From the NCBI GenBank assembly GCA_903917235.1, contig CAIWZS010000180.1, forward strand, positions 1-33,325: a stretch of DNA of 33,325 nucleotides, given 5' to 3'. The stretch comes from an uncultured Planctomycetaceae bacterium (GTDB lineage: Bacteria; Planctomycetota; Planctomycetia; Pirellulales; UBA1268). Every line of letters starts with the position of its first letter. Positions within the stretch are counted from its first letter, which is position 1. Made by a program: the position numbers and the translations under genes. A model generated the notes under the pieces. The model did no database searches, was not told where the DNA came from, and saw only the letters and a list, made by a program, of their open reading frames with translations. Positions 12,249 to 33,288 of this stretch are shown here, one piece after another.

Positions 12249-13751
12249 TCAGTCGGGGAGCGGACGCCCCTTCGTCTCGGGGCCGAACCAGACGAGCACG
12301 ACGCCGACGAGATAGATCGCCACGAGCACCGATCCCGCCTTCGGAAAGCTGCCGTCGAAGAAGGCCATCAGGGTGGCGGTCTGCAGTCCGCCGATCGCCG
12401 CGATGATCCGTCCGAAGTTGAACGCGAAGCCCTGCCCCGTCGCCCGCACCGCCGTGGGAAAGAGCTCCGGGAAGTAGAGCGGAAAGAAGCCGTAGAACGA
12501 CGCGCTGATCCCCCCCGCGGCGAACGCGGCAAGGAGGAACGACGCGCCGTATGCGTCGTGGCCCTGGTAGAGCCAGAGCGCCGCGGCGATCGTCGCGAGG
12601 CACAGGATCGTGAACGTGGGACGCCGTCCGATCCGGTCGGCGACGAGCGCGGTGAGGAACGTCGACAGGATCGCCCCGAGCGCGGTGGCGATCTGCGAGT
12701 ACTCCTTCGCGTGCGGCACGTCCTTCCCCGCGAGCTCCATCGCCCAGCGGGGAATCCACTGGATCGCCCCCCAGGTGCCGAGGAGCGTCACGCCGGCCAG
12801 CCCCGCGCCGAAGAGCATCCGACCCACGACGGTGCGGCCCGACCCCGCCGGCAGTGATCCGGCCCGCTCGGCCCGATCGAGGTAGCGCAGCACGGGATAG
12901 AGATAGCCCGCGGCCGCGATCAGGAGGCCGGCCACCGTGACCGCCGTCGCCCACGCGGGCGGCAGCCCGGCCGGCGACCACGCCCAGATGATCGAGAGCG
13001 CCGCCCCGCCACCGACGAGCACGCCGAGGAGATCGGCCTTCATCCAGTGCGACGTGGCGCCGCGCTCGTTCTCGGCCTCCCACTTCTCCGATTCCGGCAC
13101 CCAGATGCGGATCAGGAAGATGAGGAGCGCCGGCAGGGCGCCGCTGATCATGAGCAGCCGCCAGGCCGAGTTGGCCACGAGCTGCGTGACGACGGTCTCG
13201 GAAAGTCCCATGCCCGTGAGCAGGGACCGCGTGCCGTCGATGACGCTGCCCAGGCCGAGGCTGAGGAGCGCCACGAGCAGGAAGCCGACGTTCGCCGCCG
13301 CGCCGATGAGGCCCGCGGTGACCGCCCGCGACTTGCCGGGCCAGATCTCGTTGACGAGCGCCACGCCGAGCGACCATTCCCCGCCCATGCCGAGCGACGC
13401 GATGAAGCGCAGCGCGGCGACATGCCACGCCTCGGTCGCAAAGCCGCACAACCCGGTGAAGACCGCGTAGGTGAAGATGCTCAGGGCCATCGCGCGCACG
13501 CGGCCGATCACGTCCCCCAGCCAACCGAACAGCACGCCCCCGGTCGCCGCCCCCACGAGGAAGACGGCGATGATCGCGCCGAACCACTTGTCGGCATCCC
13601 CGGGAGCCGCGCCGGCCCCGAGGAGATCCTTGATGGCCGGGCCGCCGATCAGCGGGAAGAGCCCCATCTCGAAGCCGTCGAAGAGCCATCCAAGGATGGC
13701 CGCCACGAGGGCCGCATTGCGGCCGAACGCCGACGCAGAGCGATGGGTCAT
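12249..13751 (-). CDS. MFS transporter (sugar/aromatic-acid symporter type)
   Basis: This 500-residue polytopic transporter has the MFS signature between helices 2 and 3 (GWLGDVIGRVRAMAL), LRFIASLGMGGEWSLG in helix 4, and a second-half ADRIGRRPTF loop. FFPLYFPELFPTAVRATGQG is typical of the metabolite:H+ symporter group. The start at ATG 13751 overlaps the stop of the Gfo/Idh gene as ATGA, so the two are translationally coupled. The frame is open further upstream, but that is the antisense of nothing and lies within the oxidoreductase gene. Coupling suggests transport of the sugar, inositol-like or acid substrate handled by that oxidoreductase. It is not closely similar to the MFS gene at 1226-2770. 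Confidence 0.9.
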   Translation of the reverse strand: MTHRSASAFGRNAALVAAILGWLFDGFEMGLFPLIGGPAIKDLLGAGAAPGDADKWFGAIIAVFLVGAATGGVLFGWLGDVIGRVRAMALSIFTYAVFTGLCGFATEAWHVAALRFIASLGMGGEWSLGVALVNEIWPGKSRAVTAGLIGAAANVGFLLVALLSLGLGSVIDGTRSLLTGMGLSETVVTQLVANSAWRLLMISGALPALLIFLIRIWVPESEKWEAENERGATSHWMKADLLGVLVGGGAALSIIWAWSPAGLPPAWATAVTVAGLLIAAAGYLYPVLRYLDRAERAGSLPAGSGRTVVGRMLFGAGLAGVTLLGTWGAIQWIPRWAMELAGKDVPHAKEYSQIATALGAILSTFLTALVADRIGRRPTFTILCLATIAAALWLYQGHDAYGASFLLAAFAAGGISASFYGFFPLYFPELFPTAVRATGQGFAFNFGRIIAAIGGLQTATLMAFFDGSFPKAGSVLVAIYLVGVVLVWFGPETKGRPLPD

Positions 13752-15145
13752 GCGCGCACCTCGAAACCGGACCGCTGCGGCCGCGACCGCAGGGCGTCGG
13801 CCTCGGAATCGTCCGGAAAACGCTCCGCCTCGGGGTCCCACCGGAGCGTCCGGCCGAGCCGGCAGGCGATGCCGCCGAGGTGGCAGGTCGTCGCGCTCCG
13901 ATGCTGGCTCTCGACGTCGGAGATCGGCCGCCGCCGTGACGCCACGCAGTCGAAGAAGTTGCCCATGTGGTTCTTGATCGCCTCGATCTTGCCCGACCGC
14001 TCGGGCCGGGAGGTGTTGTCGAAGTCGTAGAGCGAAAACGATCCGCGTCCGAGGGGATGCGCGGCGAGTTCGTCGACGGGCCTGCCCGAGAGGTTCTCCC
14101 GATTGACGAAGAGCCGGCCCGCGGTGCCGGTGAAGAGGATGCCGTTGCGCCCATGATCGGCGACCGTCATCTCGACACCGTTGGCATAGCGGTAGCGCAC
14201 CGCAAAATCGACCGGCACGGTGTAGCGATCAGCCGGGGCGGTGCCGGCGACCGGCTCGCCGAACCGTGCCGACCCCTCCACCTCCACCGGCAGCGAGCCG
14301 ATCGCCCACTGGGCGATGTCGAGGTGGTGCGCGCCCCAGTCGGTGATCTGACCGCCGGAGTAGTCGAGCCACCACCGGAACGTGTAGTGGCAGCGCTCGG
14401 GCACGTAGGGAACGTCCGGCGCCTGCCCCTGCCAGAGGTTCCAGTCGAGGGCGTCGGGGACCGGCGCCGTGTGGAACGGTCCGCCGGCGACGTTGCGACC
14501 GAGCACCACCTCGACTTTTTCCAGCGTGCCGATCCGGCCCTGCCGCACCATCTCGACGGCCGTGCGAAAACGATGATCGCTGCGCTGCCACGAGCCGACC
14601 TGCACGACCCGTCCGCTCATCTCGACGGCGCGACGGATCGCCCTGCCCTCGTCGATCGTGAGGGTCAACGGCTTCTCGCAGTAGACGTCCTTCCCCGCCT
14701 GCACCGCATCGACGATCATTTTGGCGTGCCAGTGGTCGGGCGACCCGATGAGCACGACCGCGACCCGCGGGTCGTCGAGCACCCGGCGGTAGTCGACGTG
14801 ACGATCGGCGGCCGCGACGTCCGCGTAGATCGCCTCCGGCGACAGGCCCGTCTGCTTGGCGACGTTGCCGTCCACGAGCGACAGGTCCAGCACCCGACGA
14901 TCGGCGTCGGCCAGCGCGACCACGCGGCCATGCGCCCTGGCCACGGCGGCGATGACGGACCCCTGGTAGCGGGCGCCGACCACGCCGATTCCGGGGCCGT
15001 CCGCCGGTGTCGAAGCGGGCTGACCGGCCGGACGGCCCGCGGGATCACCCGCATGCACGAGCCGGTGCGTCGTGCAGAGCGCGGCGAGTCCTGCGGCCCC
15101 CGTGAGCCAGCCCCGGCGGTGGAGCGTGCCGGTGCGGGTGTGCAT
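13748..15145 (-). CDS. Gfo/Idh/MocA-family oxidoreductase, Tat-type leader
   Basis: This 465-residue protein starts with a twin-arginine-like leader (HRRGWLTGAAGLAAL), which suggests export in folded form, as is common for planctomycete members. The nucleotide-binding fold follows at about residue 53 (IGVVGARYQGSVIAAVA). The family catalytic region is SPDHWHAKMIVDAVQAGKDV and then CEKPL with EKP at 157-159. The C-terminal half contains GGQITDWGAHHLDIAQWA, a typical substrate-side segment. Members oxidise or reduce sugars and polyols with NAD(P); the substrate here is unknown. The ATG at 15145 has GGAGGAGG about 10 bases upstream. It follows the E1-like gene by 68 bases and overlaps the next MFS gene. 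Confidence 0.9.
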   Translation of the reverse strand: MHTRTGTLHRRGWLTGAAGLAALCTTHRLVHAGDPAGRPAGQPASTPADGPGIGVVGARYQGSVIAAVARAHGRVVALADADRRVLDLSLVDGNVAKQTGLSPEAIYADVAAADRHVDYRRVLDDPRVAVVLIGSPDHWHAKMIVDAVQAGKDVYCEKPLTLTIDEGRAIRRAVEMSGRVVQVGSWQRSDHRFRTAVEMVRQGRIGTLEKVEVVLGRNVAGGPFHTAPVPDALDWNLWQGQAPDVPYVPERCHYTFRWWLDYSGGQITDWGAHHLDIAQWAIGSLPVEVEGSARFGEPVAGTAPADRYTVPVDFAVRYRYANGVEMTVADHGRNGILFTGTAGRLFVNRENLSGRPVDELAAHPLGRGSFSLYDFDNTSRPERSGKIEAIKNHMGNFFDCVASRRRPISDVESQHRSATTCHLGGIACRLGRTLRWDPEAERFPDDSEADALRSRPQRSGFEVRA

Positions 15146-15213
15146 GATGGGCCATCCTCCTCCGACGTGAATGTCCAAGGATACCCCGCAGGCACCGACG
15201 AGTCGCCCCCGGG

Positions 15214-16023
15214 TCACGGCGGCGGCGTGTCGCCAGCCGATGCCGTTCCCTCCGCCCGCGTCCCGCACACCCGGCACCCCGATCGCGCAGCGATCTCGAC
15301 CTGCCGACAGGCGAGCGTCGTGACGTCGAGCACGACGAGCCGGCCGGCAGCCGCCGGTGCGGCGCCGGCGAGGATTCGCACCACCTCGACCGCGGCGAGC
15401 GCGCCCGCGACTCCCGAGACGGCGCCGAGGACGGGAAACTCCCGCTTCCACTGCGGCGGCGCCTCGGGGCAGAGGCAGGCGAGGCAGGGTCCGCCGGGCG
15501 CCACCGTGAAGATCCGCACCTCCATGTCGTACATCGCGGCATCGACGAGCATGACGCCGGCCGAGACGGCCGCCGCGTTGAGTGCCAGTCGCTCCGTGAA
15601 GAGCGGTGCCGCGCCGACGGCCGCCGCACAGCCCACGACGAGCCGACTCGCGTTCGCCTCCGACACGTTCTCGCCCACGGTCTCCACGACGACGTGCGGA
15701 TTGAGTGCCGCGAGCCGCTCGGCCGCGACCTCGATCCGCGGCCGGCCCAGCTCGGGCGTGGACATGAGCACCTGCCGGTTCAAGTCGTCCCGGCGCACCG
15801 GGCCTGCATGCGCGAGCACGAGCCGCCCGACGCCAGCGGCCGCGAGGTAGAGCGCCGCGGTGCCCCCCACGCCACCGATGCGTGACACGAGGACGCTCGC
15901 CTGCTTCAGCCGACGCTGGCCCGCCACGCCGAGATCGGTCACGCCGAGCTGCCACGCATACCGGTCGAGTTCGGCAGGCGAGAGCAGGTCGTCGGCGTCG
16001 ACGGGCGGCCGAAGGTGTCGCAT
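15214..16023 (-). CDS. E1-like MoeB/ThiF/HesA family protein with altered ATP site
   Basis: This 269-residue protein has the MoeB/ThiF fold. The dinucleotide-like loop RIGGVGGT lies at 48-55, the DLNRQ motif at 80-84, and two zinc Cys pairs at CLAC (180-183) and CRVC (250-253). Such proteins adenylate the Gly-Gly end of a sulfur carrier, here probably the MoaD-like protein whose gene stops five bases upstream. Several conserved residues are missing. The Asp of the usual DCTDN motif is replaced in GCAAAVG (131-137), the acidic D-x-D segment before LNRQ reads HAGP, and no Cys stands at the E. coli MoeB Cys187 position. Activity may therefore be changed or lost. GGAGG precedes the ATG at 16023 with nine bases of spacing. 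Confidence 0.85.
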   Translation of the reverse strand: MRHLRPPVDADDLLSPAELDRYAWQLGVTDLGVAGQRRLKQASVLVSRIGGVGGTAALYLAAAGVGRLVLAHAGPVRRDDLNRQVLMSTPELGRPRIEVAAERLAALNPHVVVETVGENVSEANASRLVVGCAAAVGAAPLFTERLALNAAAVSAGVMLVDAAMYDMEVRIFTVAPGGPCLACLCPEAPPQWKREFPVLGAVSGVAGALAAVEVVRILAGAAPAAAGRLVVLDVTTLACRQVEIAARSGCRVCGTRAEGTASAGDTPPP

Positions 16024-16028
16024 CCGTG

Positions 16029-16313
16029 TCAGCCTCCGGCCACCGGCGGGAGGAGCAGCACGGTCGCGTGGTCGCCGATGACCAGCGCCTCACGCGCGTC
16101 GCCCGGCACCGCACGGCCATCGATGACGACCACCAGCGTCGGCTGGATGCGGCCGTCGGCGGTCAGCAGGTGCGGCCGCAGCGCCGGCGGACCCAGTGCG
16201 GCCAGGGAGGCGACGAGACCGCCGAGCGAGGTGCCCGCGTCCACCTCGACCTCGTCCGCATGCCGGCCCGCCGCCGCACGCACCTGGCCCGTGTATTCCA
16301 CGCGAACGGTCAC
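16029..16313 (-). CDS. MoaD/ThiS-like ubiquitin-fold sulfur carrier
   Basis: This 94-residue beta-grasp protein ends in Gly-Gly (LLLPPVAGG), the form required for C-terminal adenylation and thiocarboxylation. The first strand (TVRVEYTGQVRAAAG) and the middle (GTSLGGLVASLAALG) fit MoaD. MoaD donates sulfur to molybdopterin with MoaE; no moaE is in the window. The start is a GTG at 16313 whose sequence GTGA overlaps the stop of the upstream ATPase gene, so the two are translationally coupled. Position between a Mod-type ABC transporter and an E1-like protein supports a role in molybdenum or tungsten cofactor sulfur transfer. A role in another thio-modification is possible. Confidence 0.87.
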   Translation of the reverse strand: MTVRVEYTGQVRAAAGRHADEVEVDAGTSLGGLVASLAALGPPALRPHLLTADGRIQPTLVVVIDGRAVPGDAREALVIGDHATVLLLPPVAGG

Positions 16314-16984
16314 GCGTCGTCTCCAGCGGCCGCGAGCGATGCCAGCGGTCGCGCCGTGACCACCCCGCGCTCGATCACGTAGAGGATATCCGCCAGCCGT
16401 CGCGCCTCGTCTCGCGAGTGCGTGACGTGGAGCGTGGTGACGCCGTGCTCCCGCTGGATCCTGCGAAGCAGCACGCAGAGGCGGTCGCGGGTGGCCTCGT
16501 CCACGGCGGCGAGCGGCTCGTCGAGCAGCAGGAGCCGTGGCCGGAACGACAGCGCCCGCCCGAGCGCGACGCGCCGCGCCTCGCCACCGCTCAGGTCGCG
16601 CACGCCACGCTCGACGAGGTGGGCGATCTCCAGCGACTCGGCCAGCGTGGCGACGCGGGTCGCGATCTCCGCGCGGGGAACGCGGCGCACGCGTAGGGCG
16701 AAGCCGAGGTGATCCCGCACCGACATGGTGGGAAAGAGCGCGAGATCCTGGGGCACGTAGCCGATGTCCCGCGCCGAGAGCGGAGCCCCCGTGATGTCGA
16801 TCCCGTCGAGGCGGACCGCTCCCGCCGTCGCCGGACGGAGTCCACAGATGCCCTCGAGGAGCGTTGTCTTGCCCGACCCGGTCCGGCCCATCAGCACGCC
16901 GTAGCCGCCCGACGGCACCTCCAGGTCCGCCGCGGCCAGCCGGAACCCGCCGCTCCGCACGGTGAGACCGCACACCTCGATCAT
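16310..16984 (-). CDS. ABC transporter ATP-binding protein, ModC/WtpC type
   Basis: This 224-residue ATPase has Walker A GRTGSGKT (33-40), Q-loop YVPQDLALFP around Gln79, signature LSGGE (131-135), Walker B LLLLDEP (151-157) and H-loop His189. It lacks the C-terminal TOBE regulatory domain that makes classical ModC about 350 residues, so oxyanion feedback through that domain is absent. It energises import together with the permease encoded directly upstream (TGATG overlap) and the twin ModA-like protein. Molybdate or tungstate is the likely cargo because of the neighbouring ModA-like and MoaD-like genes; sulfate or another anion cannot be excluded. Confidence 0.9.
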   Translation of the reverse strand: MIEVCGLTVRSGGFRLAAADLEVPSGGYGVLMGRTGSGKTTLLEGICGLRPATAGAVRLDGIDITGAPLSARDIGYVPQDLALFPTMSVRDHLGFALRVRRVPRAEIATRVATLAESLEIAHLVERGVRDLSGGEARRVALGRALSFRPRLLLLDEPLAAVDEATRDRLCVLLRRIQREHGVTTLHVTHSRDEARRLADILYVIERGVVTARPLASLAAAGDDA

Positions 16985-17874
16985 CACGCCACCTTCCCGC
17001 CGAGGAGCCGCACGATCGCGAGCACGACGATCGCCGCCGCGATCATGATCAGCGACACGGCCACCGCGGCCTCCAGCTGGCCGACGCTCAGCTCGAGAAA
17101 CACGGTCGTCGAGAGCACCTCGGTGCGCATCCGCGTGGCACCGGCGAAGACGAGGATCGGTCCGAACTCGCCGAGCGACCGCGCCCACGCGATCGTGAAC
17201 GCGGCCACCACCCCCCGCCACGCCTGGGGCAGCACCACGCGGCAGAACGCCTGATCCCGGCGGCAGCCGAGCGTCCGCGCCACCTGCTCGGCCCGCGGAT
17301 CGATGCGGTCGAACGTCAGCTGCAGCGAGTGCGCCGCGAACGCACAGGCGACGGCGAACTGCGCGATGACGACGGCGACGGGCGTGTAGGCCACCCGCAT
17401 GCCGAGGTGCCGCTGCGCGAGCGACTCGAGGGTCGCCCCCGCGACGGGCAGGTGGAACAGGATGAGCAGGCTCAGTCCGAGCACGAGGGGAGGCAGCACG
17501 ACGGGGATGTCGAGGACGGCCTCGACGGCACGCCGGCCCGGGAACTCGTGCCGCGAGAGCAGGTAGGCCAGCGGCATCGCCACGACGATCGAGAGCAGGG
17601 CGGCGATCGTGCAGGTGACGAGCGTGAGCTGCACGGCGAACCGGATCTCGGGCTTCGCGAGCGCCTCGAGCAGGTGACGCGGCGACGTCGAGAGCACGTC
17701 GGCGGCGAGCAGCGCCACCACGAGGAGCACGTAGACGCTGCCGAGCGTGATGAACGCGGCATGAAAGGGCCAGTCGGGTCCGGCCCGATACGGTCGTTCC
17801 GTTCGGCCGGGCGGCACCGCGCCGGGAGGCGGCGCCTCGGCACCGGCCGCCGGATCGTCCGCAGCACGTCTCAT
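16984..17874 (-). CDS. ABC transporter permease, ModB/WtpB type
   Basis: This 296-residue membrane permease has about six hydrophobic segments. The cytoplasmic EAA loop, which contacts the ATPase, reads EQVARTLGCRRDQAFCRVVL and continues into AWRGVVAAFTIAWARSLGEFGP, a pattern of molybdate/tungstate/sulfate permeases. The first 45 residues are Pro/Ala/Arg-rich and cytosolic, longer than in E. coli ModB. The ATG at 17874 overlaps the stop of the substrate-binding gene as ATGA, and its own stop overlaps the ATPase start. This tight overlap shows that the three transporter genes are expressed together. Confidence 0.9.
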   Translation of the reverse strand: MRRAADDPAAGAEAPPPGAVPPGRTERPYRAGPDWPFHAAFITLGSVYVLLVVALLAADVLSTSPRHLLEALAKPEIRFAVQLTLVTCTIAALLSIVVAMPLAYLLSRHEFPGRRAVEAVLDIPVVLPPLVLGLSLLILFHLPVAGATLESLAQRHLGMRVAYTPVAVVIAQFAVACAFAAHSLQLTFDRIDPRAEQVARTLGCRRDQAFCRVVLPQAWRGVVAAFTIAWARSLGEFGPILVFAGATRMRTEVLSTTVFLELSVGQLEAAVAVSLIMIAAAIVVLAIVRLLGGKVA

Positions 17875-19421
17875 CGCGTCGTCCCGACGCCGACGCCGTC
17901 GCCGAGCCAGCGGAAACCCTCGGCCTCGAAGATCTCCCGCGACTCGGCCGTCTCGATGGCGGCCAGGAGCCGCATGGCCAGCCGTCGATGGGTCGATCCT
18001 GTCGCGACTCCATAGGGCTGATTGGCGATCGAACAGGACAGCCCGTCGATCCGCACCGCGTCGAGCACATCGCCCGAGCCGGCGGCATTGGAGAGGTAGA
18101 CGACCGCGGCATCGAGCGAGCCGCTCCGCATCTGGTTGACGAGCATGTCGCCGGTGGGGGTCTGCACCACGACGTTCTCCATGAGTTCGGACCGGAGTCC
18201 GGCCTCGGTGAAGGTCCGCTGCGTGAGCCAGCCCATCGCGCACTGCTTCTCGTGGCCGATGCCCACCCGCAGGCCGGGTTTCGTGAGGTCGGCGAGGCTG
18301 CCGACGCCGAGCGGATTGCCCTTGGCCACGAGGATGACGAGTTCGTTCTGCGAGACGACCCGCGACTCGGGAAAGAGATCCCCCACCTGCGTCATGAACT
18401 CCGTGTCGCAGGCGAAGTAGGCGTCGGGTACGCGTCCGGCCCGCATCTGGGCGACGAGGATGCCGCAGCCGTTGTAGACGCGGGTCACGCTGACTCCCTC
18501 GCGTGCCTCGAACTCCGCCACCGTGCGCTCGAGCGCCGGTCGCAGCATCGATCCGGCGTAGAGCACGACCTCGGGATCGGGATCCCACGCATCACCGGGC
18601 AGGGGCGTGAAACCGTGCTCTCGGTAGCGGGCGAGGCCGCGATCGCGCGCGGCACAGAACCGGGCGAAACGGTGGGCCCGTGCCGAGCGGGCCGACCCGG
18701 CGGCCGCCTCGCCCCGCGGGTCGGCCGGCTCGACGACGGCGACGCCCACGAGCGACACGACGTCGGCGAACTCCGGCACGCGCACCCCCTCGAGGTTGTC
18801 GAAGTCGTGAAGCAACGCGTCGTAGACGATCGCCGCATCCACCGACCCGAGCTTCACGGCCGTGGCCGCCTCGGTCACCGTCGTCGTGACCACCGCCGCA
18901 CGCTCGGCGAGCGGCCGCCACCGGCCCACGGGATCGAGCGCCGCACGGACGACCGCGCCGATCGCGGCCGCATCGGGGTTGGCGATCGCGAGTCGCAGTC
19001 CGGGATCGAGCAGGTCGTCGAGCGCGTCGATGCCCCGCGGATTGCCGCGAGGGACGGCGATCAGCGGCCGCATCTCCGCGAGCGGATAGTCCGCCGCGAC
19101 GAGCCCGCGCTCGCGCGCGATCGACATGAAACGATCGTCCGCGGGGAGGTAGAGATCGGCGGCGCGCACCACCTCGAGTCCGGCGAGAAGCGCTTGCGAC
19201 GGTCCGTACTGGGCCACGACACGTCCGCCGGTTTCCGCGGCGTAGTCGGCCATGATCGCCTCCATCACCGAACGGTTGCTCGCGGCGCAGGCGATCACGA
19301 GCGGCTCGTCGTCCCGCACGCGCGGGTCGCCTCGGTCGATCGCGCCGCATCCGGTCAACGCCGCCAGAAGCGGGAGCAGGAGCGGCGGCAGAACACGACG
19401 GAGGACGACGCGGCGGCACAT
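17871..19421 (-). CDS. Tandem two-domain ModA-like substrate-binding lipoprotein
   Basis: This 516-residue lipoprotein has a clear lipobox (LAALTGC, Cys25). It then contains two successive ModA-like periplasmic binding domains. The first (about 38-265) runs from EPLVIACAASNRSVMEAI through YLPADDRFM and IAVPRGNPRGI to AAIVYDALL. The second (about 283-505) runs from EVVLYAGSMLRPALERTV through YFACDTEFM, ILVAKGNPLGV and VGIGHEKQC to AAVVYLSNA. A normal ModA is about 250 residues, so this is a head-to-tail fusion. The second domain carries extra Cys residues (YNGCGIL, FACDT, EKQCAMG) near positions that in ModA line the anion pocket. It probably delivers molybdate or tungstate to the permease; the two domains may differ in ligand. 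Confidence 0.87.
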   Translation of the reverse strand: MCRRVVLRRVLPPLLLPLLAALTGCGAIDRGDPRVRDDEPLVIACAASNRSVMEAIMADYAAETGGRVVAQYGPSQALLAGLEVVRAADLYLPADDRFMSIARERGLVAADYPLAEMRPLIAVPRGNPRGIDALDDLLDPGLRLAIANPDAAAIGAVVRAALDPVGRWRPLAERAAVVTTTVTEAATAVKLGSVDAAIVYDALLHDFDNLEGVRVPEFADVVSLVGVAVVEPADPRGEAAAGSARSARAHRFARFCAARDRGLARYREHGFTPLPGDAWDPDPEVVLYAGSMLRPALERTVAEFEAREGVSVTRVYNGCGILVAQMRAGRVPDAYFACDTEFMTQVGDLFPESRVVSQNELVILVAKGNPLGVGSLADLTKPGLRVGIGHEKQCAMGWLTQRTFTEAGLRSELMENVVVQTPTGDMLVNQMRSGSLDAAVVYLSNAAGSGDVLDAVRIDGLSCSIANQPYGVATGSTHRRLAMRLLAAIETAESREIFEAEGFRWLGDGVGVGTTR

Positions 19422-27535: not shown

Positions 27536-29071
27536 TCAGGCGGTCGCGCGGTCCTGCGACTCCATCTGGTGGAGTTTGTTGTAGAGCGTCTTCAGGCTGA
27601 TCCCGAGTTCCTCCGCCGTGCGAGGCTTGTTGCCGCCGTTGCGCTCGAGCCCCTGGCGGATCGCCTCGAGTTCGAGTTCCCGCAGCGTGCGGATCGCCGT
27701 GTCGCTGCACGCGGCGACGGCCCGGCCGCCACGATTCAAGGTGGCCGCCACGGCAGCCGTCGTCTCACTCGACCCGACGTCGTGTGCCGATGCCTCGGGC
27801 GTTGCCGTCGCCCCTGAGCTCGGCGGGGGCACGCGTGCAGCGGTTTCCTGCCGAAGGGATGCCGGCGGCGTGCGGGCCGTGGACCCGAGCCGTGCCGGCA
27901 GATCGGCGAGCGTGAGGGGCAGGTGATCGGAAAGCACGAGGGCATGCTCGATGACGTTGGCGAGCTCGCGCACGTTGCCCGGCCAGTGGTGCGCGGTGAG
28001 TGCGGCGAGCACCGCCGGCTCGGCGACGTCGGCCTCGGAGGGGACCTGTGGCCGAGCGCGACGCACGAAGTGCCTCACGAGCGAAGGGATGTCGTCGCGC
28101 CGCTCGCGCAGCGGCGGCACCGCCACCTCGAACGTGTTGATCCGGAAGAGGAGGTCCTCGCGGAAGGCGCCCTCGGCCACCATGCGATCGACGTCGCGGT
28201 GGGTCGCGCACACCACGCGGACGTCCACCGTGATCGAGTGGTTCTCGCCGACGCGACGGATCTCGCCGCTTTCGAGCACCCGCAGCAGCCGCGACTGCAG
28301 CGACCGCGGCAATTCGCCGATCTCGTCGAGAAACAGCGTGCCACCGTCGGCCACCTCGAAGAGCCCGGCCCGATGCTCGTCGGCACCCGTGAAGGCGCCG
28401 CGGCGATGACCGAACAGCTCGCTTTCGACGAGGTGCTCCGGCAGCGCGCCACAGTTCACCGCGACGAGGGGCCCCGCGGCGCGGCGGCTGCCCTCGTGGA
28501 TCGCGCGGGCGACGAGCTCCTTGCCCGTCCCCGTCTCGCCGCGCACGAGCACCGTCGCGTCGCTCGCAGCCACGCGGGCGACGAGCCGACGCACCGTCCC
28601 GAGCGCGATCGAATCGCCCACGAGCTGCGGAGCGCCCTCCGCGCGCTGCACCCGCCGCTCGAGGGCGCGCATGCGGGCGGTGAGCTCACGCTTTTTCCTG
28701 ACCCGTTCGAGGACCGCCTGAATCTCGGCGAGCTTGCACGGCTTCGTCAGGTAGTCGAAGACGCCCTGCCGCACCGCCGCGACGGCGCTCTCCACGGATG
28801 ACTTGCCCGTCACGATCACCGTCTCGGTGTCGGGCGACGTCTCCCGCACGCGGGCCACGACCTCCAGCCCTCCGGCGCCGGGCATGTCGAGATCGACGAT
28901 CACGCAGTCGTAGGCGGTGCGCTCGAGCGCCGCGAGCGCGGTGCGGCCGTCCGGGCAGACCGTGGCCTCGTGGCCCAGACGCGGCAGCTCGATCCGCATC
29001 AGCTCCTGGAGCGATGCCTCGTCGTCCGCGAAGAGCACCCGCATCGGTCTCGTCGTCGCTCGCTGTGCCAT
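27536..29071 (-). CDS. NtrC-family sigma-54-dependent response regulator
   Basis: This 511-residue protein has three parts. The receiver domain (about 10-125) has phosphoacceptor Asp60 in VIVDLDMPG and Lys110. The AAA+ domain (about 148-385) has Walker A GETGTGKE (178-185), the sigma-54 contact loop GAFTGA (225-230), Walker B GGTLFLDE (243-250) and a [16 protein letters not shown] sensor region. The Fis-type helix-turn-helix lies at the C-terminus ([20 protein letters not shown]). It should activate sigma-54 promoters when phosphorylated, almost surely by the kinase encoded directly upstream. A Pro/Ala/Thr-rich linker precedes the HTH. Possible starts are 29089, 29071 and 29044; none has a strong ribosome-binding site, and 29071 is a compromise. 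A consensus sigma-54 promoter occurs at 7167-7182 in this window. Confidence 0.93.
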
Positions 29072-29133
29072 GTCGTGTCCCGTCTCCATGTCCTGAGTGT
29101 GTCGTCGCCTGCGCGGAGCCTGTCCGGCGGGGT

Positions 29134-30744
29134 TCACGCGGCCCGCCCGGGTGTGGCGCGCTCCCGGCCACCAGCCGCCATGCCGCCGACCTGGGCGAGC
29201 GGCAGCGTGACGCGGAACGTGGAGCCGAGCCCCGGCCCACCGCTCGACACCTCGATCCGCCCTCCGTGATCGGTGACGATCCGGTGCACGATCGAGAGGC
29301 CGAGTCCGGTGCCCTGCCCCGATTTGCGCCGTGTGAAGAACGGCTCGAAGAGGTGCTCGAGCACCTCCTCGGTCATGCCACAACCGTCGTCGGTGACGGT
29401 GAGCACCGCCTCACCGGCCCCATGCAATGATTCCGGCACCGGCGACCTCCGCGCCGCGATCCGCACGTGCCCCGACTCCTCGATCGAGTCGAGCGCATTG
29501 ACGAGCAGGTTGAGCACCACCTGCTTGAGCTCCTGCGGGTTGGCCATCACGAGCACGTCCTGCCCCTCCTCGATCTCGATCGCTCGGCCCTTGAACCGGC
29601 CGACGTGCCGCAGCATCTCCGCGACGTCGCCCACGAGGGCGACCAGCGCCGTGGCCTGACGACGCACCTCGCCGAGCCGCGAAAAGTCGAGCAGCTTCTC
29701 CGTGATGCCCTTGCACCGGAAGGCTTCGGCCTGGATGAGCTCCACGTAGCGCCGGGCGATGCGCGCCTCGTCGTCGTTTCCGGCGAGCGATTCGAGCCGG
29801 CCCTCCAGAGACTCCGCGCACATCGCGATCGAAGCGAGGGGGTTGTTGATCTCGTGGGCGACGCCCGCGGCGAGAAACCCCACGCTCGCCAGCTGCTCGC
29901 TGCGGATCACCTCGCGCGTGCGCGACTGCACCTGGCGATCGAGGTCGTCGCGGATCTCCTGGAATCGCTCGGTCATCTCGTTGAGCGCGGCGGCCAGCTC
30001 GGCCATCTCGTCGCGGGTGTCGAGGTGGATCCGGTAGCCGAAGTCACCCGCCGCCACGCGCCGCGAGCCGTGGCCGAGCTGCCGCAGCGGACGGAAGACC
30101 CAGCGGTAGGTGAGACCGGCGATCGTCGCCAGCAGCACGGCCGCCGCGGTCGCCGAGGCCCACGTGACGATGATGAGCGTGCGATACCGCGTGCGCACCT
30201 CGCTCGCGAGGTCGTGCAGTCGGTCCTGCAGGAAGGACGGCAGGGCGGACGTCAGCTCCGCGAGCGACCGCAGCTCGGGGTCGACATTGCGGAGCATCGC
30301 ACGGCGGCGGATCGACGGGGGCTCCCCCGGCACCGGCGTGGCCCGCACGATGCCGTCGATCGCCTCGAGGCGGGCCGCGATGCGCAGCGCCGTCTGTCGC
30401 TCACGCGAGCGGTCCCCGAGCGGAGCGTCCTCGAGTTCCCCGGCGGTGATCTCCTGGCAGTAGGCATCGAGTGCGAGTCCGGTGGCCATGAGGCCGCCGA
30501 GAAAATCCGCGATCGCGCCGCTCTCTCCGGCGAGGGCCCGCGTGTGGGCGAGCCGCGCGAGCCCCACCTGCTCGTCGAGCGCACTGGCGCGCGGCAGCTC
30601 GGCGGCGCGAGCCGACAGGGCCCGCACGAGCCGCCGGTAGGAGTAGACGCCGAGAAAGCTGCTCGCCGACAGGACGCCGACGATGACGCCCACGAGGAGG
30701 GCGCCGAGGAGGAGTTTTTCGCGGATCGGTCGGCGCCTTGGCAC
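29134..30744 (-). CDS. Membrane sensor histidine kinase (HAMP, HisKA, HATPase)
   Basis: This 536-residue kinase has two membrane segments (about 10-35 and 189-214) enclosing a periplasmic, mostly helical sensor of about 150 residues. A HAMP domain follows (215-267), then the phosphoacceptor His297 in GVAHEINNPLASIA. The ATPase has an N box (QVVLNLLVNALDSI), DDGCGM, an F box FEPFFTRR and a G box GQGTGLGLSI. It is of the NtrB-like kind that often pairs with sigma-54 response regulators, and the regulator gene starts about 60 bases downstream. The GTG at 30744 is chosen because GGAGG lies eight bases upstream and because it places the first membrane helix near the N-terminus. The sensor ligand is unknown. 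It lies 86 bases after the AAA+/RF2-like gene. Confidence 0.92.
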   Translation of the reverse strand: MPRRRPIREKLLLGALLVGVIVGVLSASSFLGVYSYRRLVRALSARAAELPRASALDEQVGLARLAHTRALAGESGAIADFLGGLMATGLALDAYCQEITAGELEDAPLGDRSRERQTALRIAARLEAIDGIVRATPVPGEPPSIRRRAMLRNVDPELRSLAELTSALPSFLQDRLHDLASEVRTRYRTLIIVTWASATAAAVLLATIAGLTYRWVFRPLRQLGHGSRRVAAGDFGYRIHLDTRDEMAELAAALNEMTERFQEIRDDLDRQVQSRTREVIRSEQLASVGFLAAGVAHEINNPLASIAMCAESLEGRLESLAGNDDEARIARRYVELIQAEAFRCKGITEKLLDFSRLGEVRRQATALVALVGDVAEMLRHVGRFKGRAIEIEEGQDVLVMANPQELKQVVLNLLVNALDSIEESGHVRIAARRSPVPESLHGAGEAVLTVTDDGCGMTEEVLEHLFEPFFTRRKSGQGTGLGLSIVHRIVTDHGGRIEVSSGGPGLGSTFRVTLPLAQVGGMAAGGRERATPGRAA

Positions 30745-30830: not shown

Positions 30831-33125
30831 TCACGGACGGCCCGGCCCGCTCTCGTCGGGCTCGACGTCCCCGGTGGAGTCGGGCTCCACGGCGCCGGCG
30901 AAGAGGTCGAAGTCGCCGGCGAGGACTCGGTCGATTCGCCCGGTCCGCCAACCTCCGATCGTGTCGCGCACGAGCGGGCTGGGCCGTTGCCGGTAGCGCC
31001 GGACGATCTGGGCCGTCACCGCGCCACGACCCTCGAAGGCCGCAAGCGCCTGCGCGACGGCACCCGTCGCTCCGCCACCCGGTGGCGTCTCGGGCTGCGG
31101 CGCGACGCGCACGACCACCCGCAGCCGGGAAAAATGCCGCGTCTGTGGCAGCGGTTCCTCGAGAACGTGCACGCCCGATTCAGCCGCGAGCAGCGTGTGC
31201 GCCCCGAGACCGCTCACGGCCAGCACCACGCGGGGCATGCGGCCTCCCCGGTCGTCGAGGATCGTCTCGGCCTTCAGACCTCGACGGTCGGCCCACGCCC
31301 GGTACATCGTGACGATCATCGCGAAGAAACCCGCCGCCGCCCCCTGCTCCGCCTCGGTGTGCTCCACACCCTCGACCAGGATGAAGGCGTCGAGCGGCCG
31401 CGACTCGACGACGTCGGTGATGGCCGTCTCGAGCACCAGCAGCCGCTGCGCCAGCCGCCCGACGTGCTCGCGCGTGAAGCGGGTACGACCGGGACCGGTC
31501 CGGCCTCGCAGCTGGTCGAACAGCCTGACCGCCGACGCGACACCGGCCTCGATCCGATCCATCTGTTCGATCGCGCCGAAGACGGCGAACCGCCCGGGCG
31601 AATCCCAGAACCCGGCCTCCCGTTGACGGTCGAGTGCCGCTCGCTTGCGGTCGCGCCACGCCTCCTCCTCGATGCATTCGACGAGCTTTCCGAGATGATG
31701 CTCGAGGCACGGCACCTCGTCGTCGCTCCCGCACGGGTCGAGGGCCAGGCCCTGCAGGCCGCGCTCCCCACCCGCCGGCGCCGTGGCCGCTTCCTGCTCC
31801 GCACCGTCGTCGTCGGGATCGATGAACTCGACCTGCAAGCGGTCCCCCTCGCTGCGGACGAAGAGGAACTGGTCGCCCCGCGGGTACTGATGGGCGACGA
31901 TCGTGCGGGCGAGCGGCGCGAGGACGTGCCGCTCGATGGCTCGCTTGAGCGGCCGTGCCCCGAGGTGCGGCGTGGTGCCGCGATCGAGCAGGAAGTCGAT
32001 GGCGGTCTCGTCCCAGATCACCACCCACTCGCGGTTGCGCAGGCCCCGGCGCCGGAAGACATCGTGCAGTTCCTTGTGAAGGATCTCCCGCAGCACGTCG
32101 CGCGACAGGGGGCGGAAGACGACGAGTCGATCGATGCGGTTGAGCAGTTCCGGACGGAAGGCCGTCGCGACGGCCTGCTCGACGGTCTCCGGAACGCGGG
32201 GTGGGCTGCCGACGAACCCGAGCCCCGGACCCTTCGGCAGAGCGGATCCGAGATTCGACGTGAGGATGATGATGCAGTTGCGGAAATCCGCGGTCACACC
32301 CTGCTGGTCGGTGAGCCGTCCGTCGTCGAAGACCTGCAGGAACAGGTCCCAGACCTGCGGATGCGACTTCTCGAACTCGTCGAGCAGCACGACCGAGAAC
32401 GGGTTCCGTCTGATCTGGTCGATGAGCGATGTGCCCACCATGTCCCGCCGGTCGTGCCCGACGATCCGGGCGAGCGATTCGGGCGTCTGGAGCTCGCTCA
32501 TGTCGATGCGGACCAGACGGTCCGCGGACCCGAAGAGGCACGCGGCGAGCGTCTTGGCGATCTCCGTCTTGCCCGTGCCCGTGGGGCCGGCGAAGAGGAA
32601 GACCCCGAGCGGCCGGGTCGGATCGGTCACGCCGGCCTTCATCATCGCCACGCGCTCCACGAGCGTCTCGATCGCCTCCGGCTGGCCGACGACACGCGAC
32701 GCGAAGAACCGTGTCAGCTCGTCGAGGTCGAGCTCCCGACGGTCGTCGAGCACCTCCTCCGGCAGCCTCGTCATCCTCCCGAGGCAGGCGATCAGGTCGT
32801 CCGTGGTCAGGTCCGGCCGGCCCGCGTCGGCCGCGGGCTTGGCGAGGTTCCTGAGGAGATCGACGAGATTCCCGGGGGCCGCCGACTCGCGCAGATACTG
32901 CTGCGCGAGGTGGGATGCCTCGCGCAACAGTGGCTCGGAGAGCGGGTGCGGCGGCCGCGGCCGCTGCCGGTCCCAGCGTCGCGCGAGGTCGAGACTCTCC
33001 TCCTCCGGCAGCGGCTCGAGCCGCACGATCTCGAACGCCGTCAGCACGATCGGCTTCGCGCGGAGGACGAGGTCGAGTCCGGCGGGCTCCGTGATCGCGA
33101 TGAAGGGGAACCGCCCCTCGACCAC
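30831..33125 (-). CDS. ClpB-like AAA+ ATPase fused to an RF2-like region lacking the GGQ domain
   Basis: The readable frame gives 764 residues. Residues 1-100 resemble the second half of a ClpB first AAA domain (EGRFPFIAITEPAGLD). Residues about 135-435 are a ClpB second AAA domain: Walker A GPTGTGKT (180-187), Walker B VVLLDE (245-250), LTSN (288-291), FRPELLNRID (323-332) and GARPLKRAI (389-397). The pore-loop Tyr is replaced (RRDMVG for GYVG type). Residues about 485-745 resemble peptide chain release factor 2: EAGFWDSPGRFA, HTEAEQ (RF2: GGTEAQ), MYRAWADRRGLKAE, AAESGVHVLEE and an RF2-like tail RTGRIDRVLAGDFDLF. The GGQ domain is missing, replaced by a short linker, and the SPF stop-codon motif is not kept. 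The role is unknown. The GTG at 33125 is only the first start in frame; the true 5' end is upstream. Confidence 0.85.
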   Translation of the reverse strand: MVEGRFPFIAITEPAGLDLVLRAKPIVLTAFEIVRLEPLPEEESLDLARRWDRQRPRPPHPLSEPLLREASHLAQQYLRESAAPGNLVDLLRNLAKPAADAGRPDLTTDDLIACLGRMTRLPEEVLDDRRELDLDELTRFFASRVVGQPEAIETLVERVAMMKAGVTDPTRPLGVFLFAGPTGTGKTEIAKTLAACLFGSADRLVRIDMSELQTPESLARIVGHDRRDMVGTSLIDQIRRNPFSVVLLDEFEKSHPQVWDLFLQVFDDGRLTDQQGVTADFRNCIIILTSNLGSALPKGPGLGFVGSPPRVPETVEQAVATAFRPELLNRIDRLVVFRPLSRDVLREILHKELHDVFRRRGLRNREWVVIWDETAIDFLLDRGTTPHLGARPLKRAIERHVLAPLARTIVAHQYPRGDQFLFVRSEGDRLQVEFIDPDDDGAEQEAATAPAGGERGLQGLALDPCGSDDEVPCLEHHLGKLVECIEEEAWRDRKRAALDRQREAGFWDSPGRFAVFGAIEQMDRIEAGVASAVRLFDQLRGRTGPGRTRFTREHVGRLAQRLLVLETAITDVVESRPLDAFILVEGVEHTEAEQGAAAGFFAMIVTMYRAWADRRGLKAETILDDRGGRMPRVVLAVSGLGAHTLLAAESGVHVLEEPLPQTRHFSRLRVVVRVAPQPETPPGGGATGAVAQALAAFEGRGAVTAQIVRRYRQRPSPLVRDTIGGWRTGRIDRVLAGDFDLFAGAVEPDSTGDVEPDESGPGRP

Positions 33126-33288
33126 GGCCGGCAGGACGAGATCGGCGACTCCGGTCGGATTCCCCGCATGCCTGCCGGCGAACAGGAAGCCCTGGAAGGA
33201 GGCGGCGCAGCGCTCGGGCGATCAGATAACCGCCCGCCGCGGCGCCGACGCCGAGCACCGCCACCGCCCCGGCCACCGCCCAGTCCAT
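33126..33288 (-). pseudogene. Displaced 5' part of the AAA+/RF2-like gene (frame disruption)
   Basis: The ATG at 33288 has a strong ribosome-binding site (GGGAGG, six bases upstream) and encodes a membrane anchor, DWAVAGAVAVLGVGAAAG then GGYLIARALRR. Its frame is one base off the AAA+ frame. The AAA+ frame is open from 33221, just after a TGA at 33222-33224, and reads FQGFLFAGRHAGNP, then TGVADLVLPAVVEG, which aligns with the part of a ClpB first AAA domain after Walker B. The Walker A half of that domain is absent. An internal deletion with a frame change, either real or from assembly, explains this best. Bases 33289-33325 hold no feature. Confidence 0.6.

Follow-up and report, generated by a model that had tools for sequence, protein, structure and literature searches.

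A predicted Clp-like AAA+ motor fused to a descendant of release factor 2 in many bacterial phyla

PrfB3 of land plants is a relative of release factor 2 (RF2, PrfB) without the SPF and GGQ motifs, a stand-alone plastid protein with no AAA+ part that protects the end of petB mRNA (PMC5897788). Balon likewise lacks codon-recognition and GGQ motifs, and is a stand-alone hibernation factor with an aeRF1-like rather than an RF2 fold (PMC10901736). In eukaryotic ribosome quality control, the release-factor relative Vms1, reported as a peptidyl-tRNA hydrolase, is paired with the AAA+ unfoldase Cdc48, according to an excerpt of a release-factor survey (PMC6514570). Among Hsp100 proteins, the loops that dock on ClpP carry IGF, MGF, or LGF, and ClpB does not bind ClpP (PMC9753991).

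Here, we describe a gene from an uncultured Planctomycetaceae bacterium (contig CAIWZS010000180.1; the whole 33,325-nucleotide stretch analyzed is hereafter called the window) whose product combines an Hsp100-type motor with an RF2-derived C-terminal arm. Like RF2, the arm has the fold of domain 1 and superdomain 2/4 and the core residues FW, MY..WA, E.G.H, R.Y, and G..D; unlike RF2, it has no GGQ domain, GGT tip, SPF, or switch loop, and it is fused to an Hsp100. The arm resembles PrfB3 as an RF2 relative devoid of SPF and GGQ, and Balon as a release-factor relative devoid of codon and GGQ motifs. The pairing of a release-factor relative with an AAA+ unfoldase recalls Vms1–Cdc48, which, in the same excerpt, consists of two proteins with a different release-factor fold and a different AAA+ (PMC6514570). 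The motor, as read from its motifs, would be similar to ClpA and ClpC in its tandem AAA1–AAA2 modules without a long middle domain, its intact AAA2 catalytic motifs, its D1 pore aromatic, and its xGF loop. It differs from them in carrying a membrane helix and a helical domain instead of the Clp N-domain, in the added RF2-like arm, and in the loss of the AAA1 Walker B and Arg fingers and of the AAA2 GYVG loop. Although its D2 sequence scores highest with the ClpB model TIGR03346 (284 bits), its spacing is too short for the M-domain of ClpB, and it has the xGF that ClpB lacks. No Hsp100/Clp–release-factor fusion was described in the literature searched, which lay outside subscription journals and preprints, and none is mentioned in the excerpt of the release-factor survey (PMC6514570). 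Both halves are known; it is their combination that was not found in this literature.

The C-terminal arm is a genuine RF2 descendant. Pfam PCRF matches residues 597–654 of the window open reading frame (ORF) with 27.2 bits against a curated cutoff of 24, and was found in 31 of 32 full-length relatives; among NCBIfam models, prfB (26.7 bits) ranks above prfA (14.3 bits) on the window ORF. When searched against PDB chains, a profile of 28 fusions matched RF2 at 1.5e-51 and RF1 at ~1e-33, and a profile restricted to the window-type clade matched RF2 at 1e-15. An AlphaFold model of window residues 424–764, computed with 50 relatives (pLDDT 89.8, pTM 0.85), returned exclusively RF2 and RF1 among the top Foldseek rows, and VIA-align 2 superposed it on Escherichia coli RF2 (1gqe) over 275 residues covering domains 1 and 2/4 (Z 19.5, rmsd 4.8). 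The original prediction had proposed a true RF2 relationship and named profile searches and predicted structures beforehand as able to overturn it; RF2 came out best in both, and together with the Pfam match these results bear the relationship out and rule out a chance resemblance. The predicted span, residues 485–745, needs extension, as RF2 homology begins at about residue 464 and includes domain 1. FWDSP (506–510), MYRAWADRRG (607–616), ESGVH (649–653), and the C-terminal VRRYRQRPSPLVRD/VLAGDFDLF (707–742) lie where they had been placed. In a tree rooted on RF1, with RF2 sampled from Planctomycetota only, 60 fusion rows formed one clade (bootstrap 95) that joined RF2 to the exclusion of RF1 (97). 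The same genome encodes a separate canonical RF2, in which SPF and GGQ are present, as well as an RF1; the fusion arm is thus an extra, specialized copy, and a misannotated canonical prfB is ruled out.

The positions that are invariant in the sampled RF2 and kept in the fusions form the core of the fold (numbering of the genome's own RF2): F44 and W45, M147 and Y148, W151 and A152, G181 and A184, and further E191, G193, and H195, R318 and Y320, D330, and G346. Lost are the GGT tip, the SPF phenylalanine, the TSF of the RQTSF element, the switch-loop glycine-phenylalanine, and the whole GGQ domain, so that none of the scored RF2 decoding-centre elements is left. The clean absence of the GGQ domain and the loss of SPF had both been anticipated, and the RF region of the window ORF indeed contains neither GGQ nor SPF. 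HTEAEQ, also claimed as an RF2 motif, does align loosely with the GGTE region of RF2, but the GGT itself is gone. At least 80% of the window-type clade have a gap in place of the catalytic domain 3, and where the catalytic loop would lie, neither the window protein nor the aligned fusions have a GGQ; all GGQ matches in the multi-phylum set fall off that position, which rules out an active GGQ in some members. As judged from these motifs, the arm is predicted to be incapable of stop-codon reading or peptide release. In two other fusion clades, part of domain 3 survives as a relic whose GGQ loop has been replaced, whereas the window-type clade deleted the domain, which suggests that catalysis was lost first and the domain deleted afterwards, the relic possibly representing a stage between intact and gutted RF2. 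Relics were seen in loci L093, L097, L102, and L106, and the replaced loop is basic in some, e.g., GKGKRMKALR in L097.

The motor combines an intact second ring with a degenerate first one. Residues 129–419 are an Hsp100 D2 (Pfam AAA_2, 171–332, 8e-42; ClpB_D2-small, 340–419, 2e-15), and Walker A, Walker B, Arg finger, and sensor 2 of D2 are present in all 75 full-length relatives. None of the 75 has the D2 GYVG pore loop: the pore tyrosine, predicted to be replaced, is absent as claimed, but through deletion of the entire loop. D1 retains the P-loop lysine in 72/75 relatives and the pore-loop aromatic in 73/75; its Walker B DE is gone, with P at the D position in 63/75, as are the RR fingers, so that a catalytic D1 was not recovered. 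Two AAA+ modules with intact D2 motifs can thus be recognized in the relatives, D1 being truncated in the window. Between sensor 1 and the Arg finger lies an xGF motif with F in 75/75 relatives, G in 74/75 (one has AF), and L, I, V, or M at x in 61/75; the GLGF of the window fits the [I/L/V/M]GF form of a ClpP-docking loop, and Lysobacter-type members have PGF instead. This motif aligns with the FGF of Planctomycetota ClpC and is absent in two ClpB controls. In a model of the 1144-aa full-length relative L132, the xGF loop is disordered, and an invariant F within a disordered loop suggests a binding motif. The best fold matches of the L132 model are ClpC, several of them from ClpC–ClpP complexes, and the model starts with a 28-residue N-terminal helix, followed by an alpha-helical domain ahead of AAA1; an N-terminal membrane helix occurs in almost all full-length relatives. 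ClpB, with its M-domain, needs a spacing of ~400 between the two Walker A motifs. In the fusions, this spacing is ~270 in most relatives and up to ~315–350 in a few, and ~270 leaves no room for the ClpB middle domain. With no M-domain spacing and with the ClpP loop that ClpB lacks, the motor reads as ClpA/ClpC-like, and the "ClpB-type" label of the original prediction does not hold.

Table 1. Features of the fusion gene in the window, listed from the 5′ to the 3′ end of the gene.
Feature	Coordinates	Strand	Basis or remark
Fusion-gene open frame as kept in the window	30831..33221	-	796 codons; annotated 764-aa ORF from GTG 33125
Putative true N-terminus: ATG 33288, MDWAVAGAVAVLGVGAAAGGYLIARALRR, one membrane helix	33202..33288	-	Relatives with a membrane helix at the same place
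AAA1 (D1) C-terminal remnant; P-loop and pore loop missing in the window copy	32811..33221	-	Homology to relatives
AAA2 (D2) large domain, residues 129–332	32130..32741	-	Pfam / NCBIfam
D2 Walker A GPTGTGKT	32565..32588	-	GKT invariant in 75/75 relatives
D2 pore-loop region, GYVG loop of ClpB/ClpC deleted	32406..32504	-	Alignment
D2 Walker B LLDEFEK	32367..32387	-	DE invariant in 75/75
GLGF, an xGF motif where ClpC/ClpA have the ClpP-docking loop	32214..32225	-	Alignment; disordered in the L132 model
D2 small domain, sensor-2 GARPL at 31947–31961	31869..32108	-	Pfam, sequence
Low-confidence linker, D2 to RF2-like region	31737..31856	-	AlphaFold model
RF2 domain 1-like helical bundle, FWDSP at 31596–31610	31407..31736	-	Model, fold matches
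RF2 domain 2-like region (PCRF), MYRAWADRRG and ESGVH; GGT tip and SPF lost	31098..31397	-	Pfam, model, alignment
Short helix replacing the entire GGQ domain 3	31029..31073	-	Model, alignment
RF2 domain 4-like C-terminal segment VRRYRQRPSPLVRD...VLAGDFDLF	30891..31007	-	Sequence, profile

We next consider how widely the fusion is distributed. With one and the same profile, fusions were told from canonical RF2 (~350–400 codons, ~60–90 bits) and RF1 (~20–37 bits) by score and frame length. They occur in 9 of 72 genomes of the family and, counted as long frames, in ~35 of 392 genomes of the phylum, and a scan of 84,980 species genomes yielded 80 fusion loci. The titles of these 80 loci include Acidobacteria, Alpha-, Beta-, and Gammaproteobacteria, Latescibacterota, Krumholzibacteriota, Gemmatimonadetes, Calditrichaceae, Desulfobacteraceae, and others. 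Titles of metagenome-assembled genomes (MAGs) may err, but the carriers include the cultured Lysobacter antibioticus, Luteimonas, Labrys okinawensis, Inquilinus limosus, Tahibacter, and Rudaea, so that the wide spread is not explicable by wrong titles. Conservation of the fusion had been raised for Planctomycetota; it is conserved there, but the loci in many phyla rule out a Planctomycetota-only family, and independent copies in many genomes rule out a one-off fusion, a frameshift read-through, or a chimeric contig. Both halves are under purifying selection (dN/dS 0.10–0.33), with ratios across six close pairs of 0.12–0.33 for the whole gene and 0.12–0.32 for the RF region. One genome, G050, holds two fusion paralogs, a window-type one on contig C311 and a more distant one on C277 that is 37% identical to the window protein.

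Gene context is variable. No conserved operon partner or neighbor was found in Planctomycetota, where neighborhoods vary, and translation genes were not found among conserved neighbors. In Lysobacteraceae (L172, L176, L178, L182, L183, and L204), mutS immediately precedes the fusion on the same strand, and local synteny around the fusion is also seen in Acidobacteria; neither arrangement is shared more widely. Genes of trmD/rplS type were noticed close to the fusion in those Lysobacteraceae loci. In the window, a sensor histidine kinase and a sigma-54 response regulator (27539–30744) lie directly downstream on the same strand, a pair absent beside the fusion in most relatives; kinases similar to the window's adjoin it in L097 and L162. 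In L101 (G123, 13376–18909), the fusion gene and an MFS transporter are followed by genes that, by eye, look like those for type III CRISPR RAMP proteins, and in L104 (G329) a 1212-aa protein whose start, likewise judged by eye, is TIR-like (FVSYRHVDPDRGWADWLHEAL) is encoded directly downstream of the fusion. A role in anti-phage defence was set aside, PADLOC having given generic AAA matches only, and a tblastn search for plasmid carriage of the fusion gave no match.

The copy in the window itself appears damaged. The minus-strand ORF 30831–33125 (764 aa) was confirmed, yet GTG 33125, predicted as its start, is not the true start of the gene, because the frame stays open and homologous to the AAA1 of relatives up to 33221. 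The probable N-terminus is ATG 33288, whose membrane-helix segment is out of frame with the rest of the window gene. A 96% identical gene in genome G006 aligns to the window gene in two blocks, with a net 730-nt deletion between them; the junction (33202–33288 / 33209–33221) is GC-rich, with a frameshift relative to G006. The G006 gene itself is without another N-terminal part that is present in G050, a deletion different from that of the window. The window copy thus appears either naturally truncated or misassembled at the contig end, and breaks at nearly the same spot in two close MAGs suggest an assembly problem or real decay. Since the window copy lacks an intact 5′ part, the intact architecture was read from relatives, which carry the membrane helix, helical domain, and AAA1 that the deletion or an assembly fault removed.

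The explanation we favor, tentatively, is that of a membrane-anchored Clp unfoldase with an RF2-derived recruiting arm. It builds on what the computation established, i.e., architecture, RF2 descent, catalytic and decoding loss, conservation, an intact AAA2, degenerate AAA1 catalysis, and a conserved xGF. The order would be N-terminal membrane helix, alpha-helical domain, AAA1, AAA2, and C-terminal arm. AAA2 would be the only ring hydrolyzing ATP, while AAA1 would bind nucleotide at most and provide the aromatic pore-loop grip. We infer a hexamer, docked on ClpP by the AAA2 xGF loop, and its orientation at the membrane. The arm would hold a client or partner beside the motor, most plausibly from the translation machinery (our guess being the ribosome or a translation factor), and the client would be remodeled or delivered to ClpP at the membrane. 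Several points count against this explanation: there is no conserved operon partner, the arm exits AAA2 on the expected ClpP face and could hinder docking, loss of GYVG in the only hydrolyzing ring is unusual for a threading unfoldase, Lysobacter-type members carry PGF instead of I/L/V/M-GF, and the window copy is apparently broken. In addition, with all scored RF2 decoding-centre contacts lost, the arm may have no remaining connection with the ribosome.

How far the ribosome is involved separates the main alternatives. The protein may be a ribosome-directed quality-control or hibernation machine, its arm still entering or touching the A site or GTPase centre without codon reading, with the motor pulling on nascent chains or taking stalled complexes apart at the membrane. 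The RF2 fold of domains 1 and 2/4 is fully kept, as this would lead one to expect, and there are precedents in Balon, which binds the A site without codon and GGQ motifs (PMC10901736), and, in the survey excerpt, in the RF1 relative Vms1, which acts with the AAA+ Cdc48 in ribosome quality control (PMC6514570). We nevertheless regard such a machine as doubtful, given the loss of GGT tip, SPF, RQTSF element, switch loop, and domain 3, and conserved neighbors that include no translation genes. A more specific version, a one-protein bacterial counterpart of Vms1–Cdc48 (as that pair is presented in the excerpt), in which the arm docks ribosomes or termination complexes and nascent or released chains go directly to ClpP, seems rather unlikely. 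Because every scored decoding element is lost, ribosome targeting by the arm, while plausible, is at most an even bet against a non-ribosomal adaptor. The RF2 fold could have been co-opted as such an adaptor or as a hexamer cap, in a general membrane-associated chaperone or unfoldase unlinked to translation. The residues shared with RF2 are those of the fold core only, gene neighborhoods vary, and in the most diverged copy, L124 (G081, 551–1642; L011 is the same protein), not even the FW and MY motifs are left, all of which would suit this reading. Very distant lineages, however, still share RF2 domain 1 with its FW as well as the C-terminal RRY...GDFD strand, seemingly beyond the need of a bare scaffold, and we consider the co-opted adaptor or cap unlikely, if well worth keeping in view. 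The RF region of L124 still keeps GLH and an R.D-like end.

Alternatively, the arm could bind RNA and the AAA+ motor remodel an RNA–protein complex, in the manner of PrfB3, an RF2 relative without SPF and GGQ that binds the petB 3′ UTR (PMC5897788); in the window-type clade, however, the arm carries a net negative charge (mean −6), which makes this improbable. Finally, the 730-nt deletion and frameshift relative to G006, and the N-terminal part that G006 lacks relative to G050, could mark a decaying pseudogene or an assembly artefact in the window genome. This would apply at most to the window copy and not to the family, which has many intact relatives, and as the preserved 764 codons show a dN/dS of 0.16 against G006, we judge it very improbable.

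Overall, two textbook families, Hsp100 unfoldases and class I release factors, are here joined in one conserved protein of many phyla. Its arm clearly exemplifies a release factor that has been deprived of both its catalytic and its codon-reading function and yet remains under selection, and its motor, with the grip in one ring and hydrolysis in the other, would be an unusual natural variant of the Clp design. The fusion may link protein destruction to the translation machinery, and with it one can test directly whether, at the membrane, translation in bacteria is physically coupled to protein unfolding or to degradation by ClpP.
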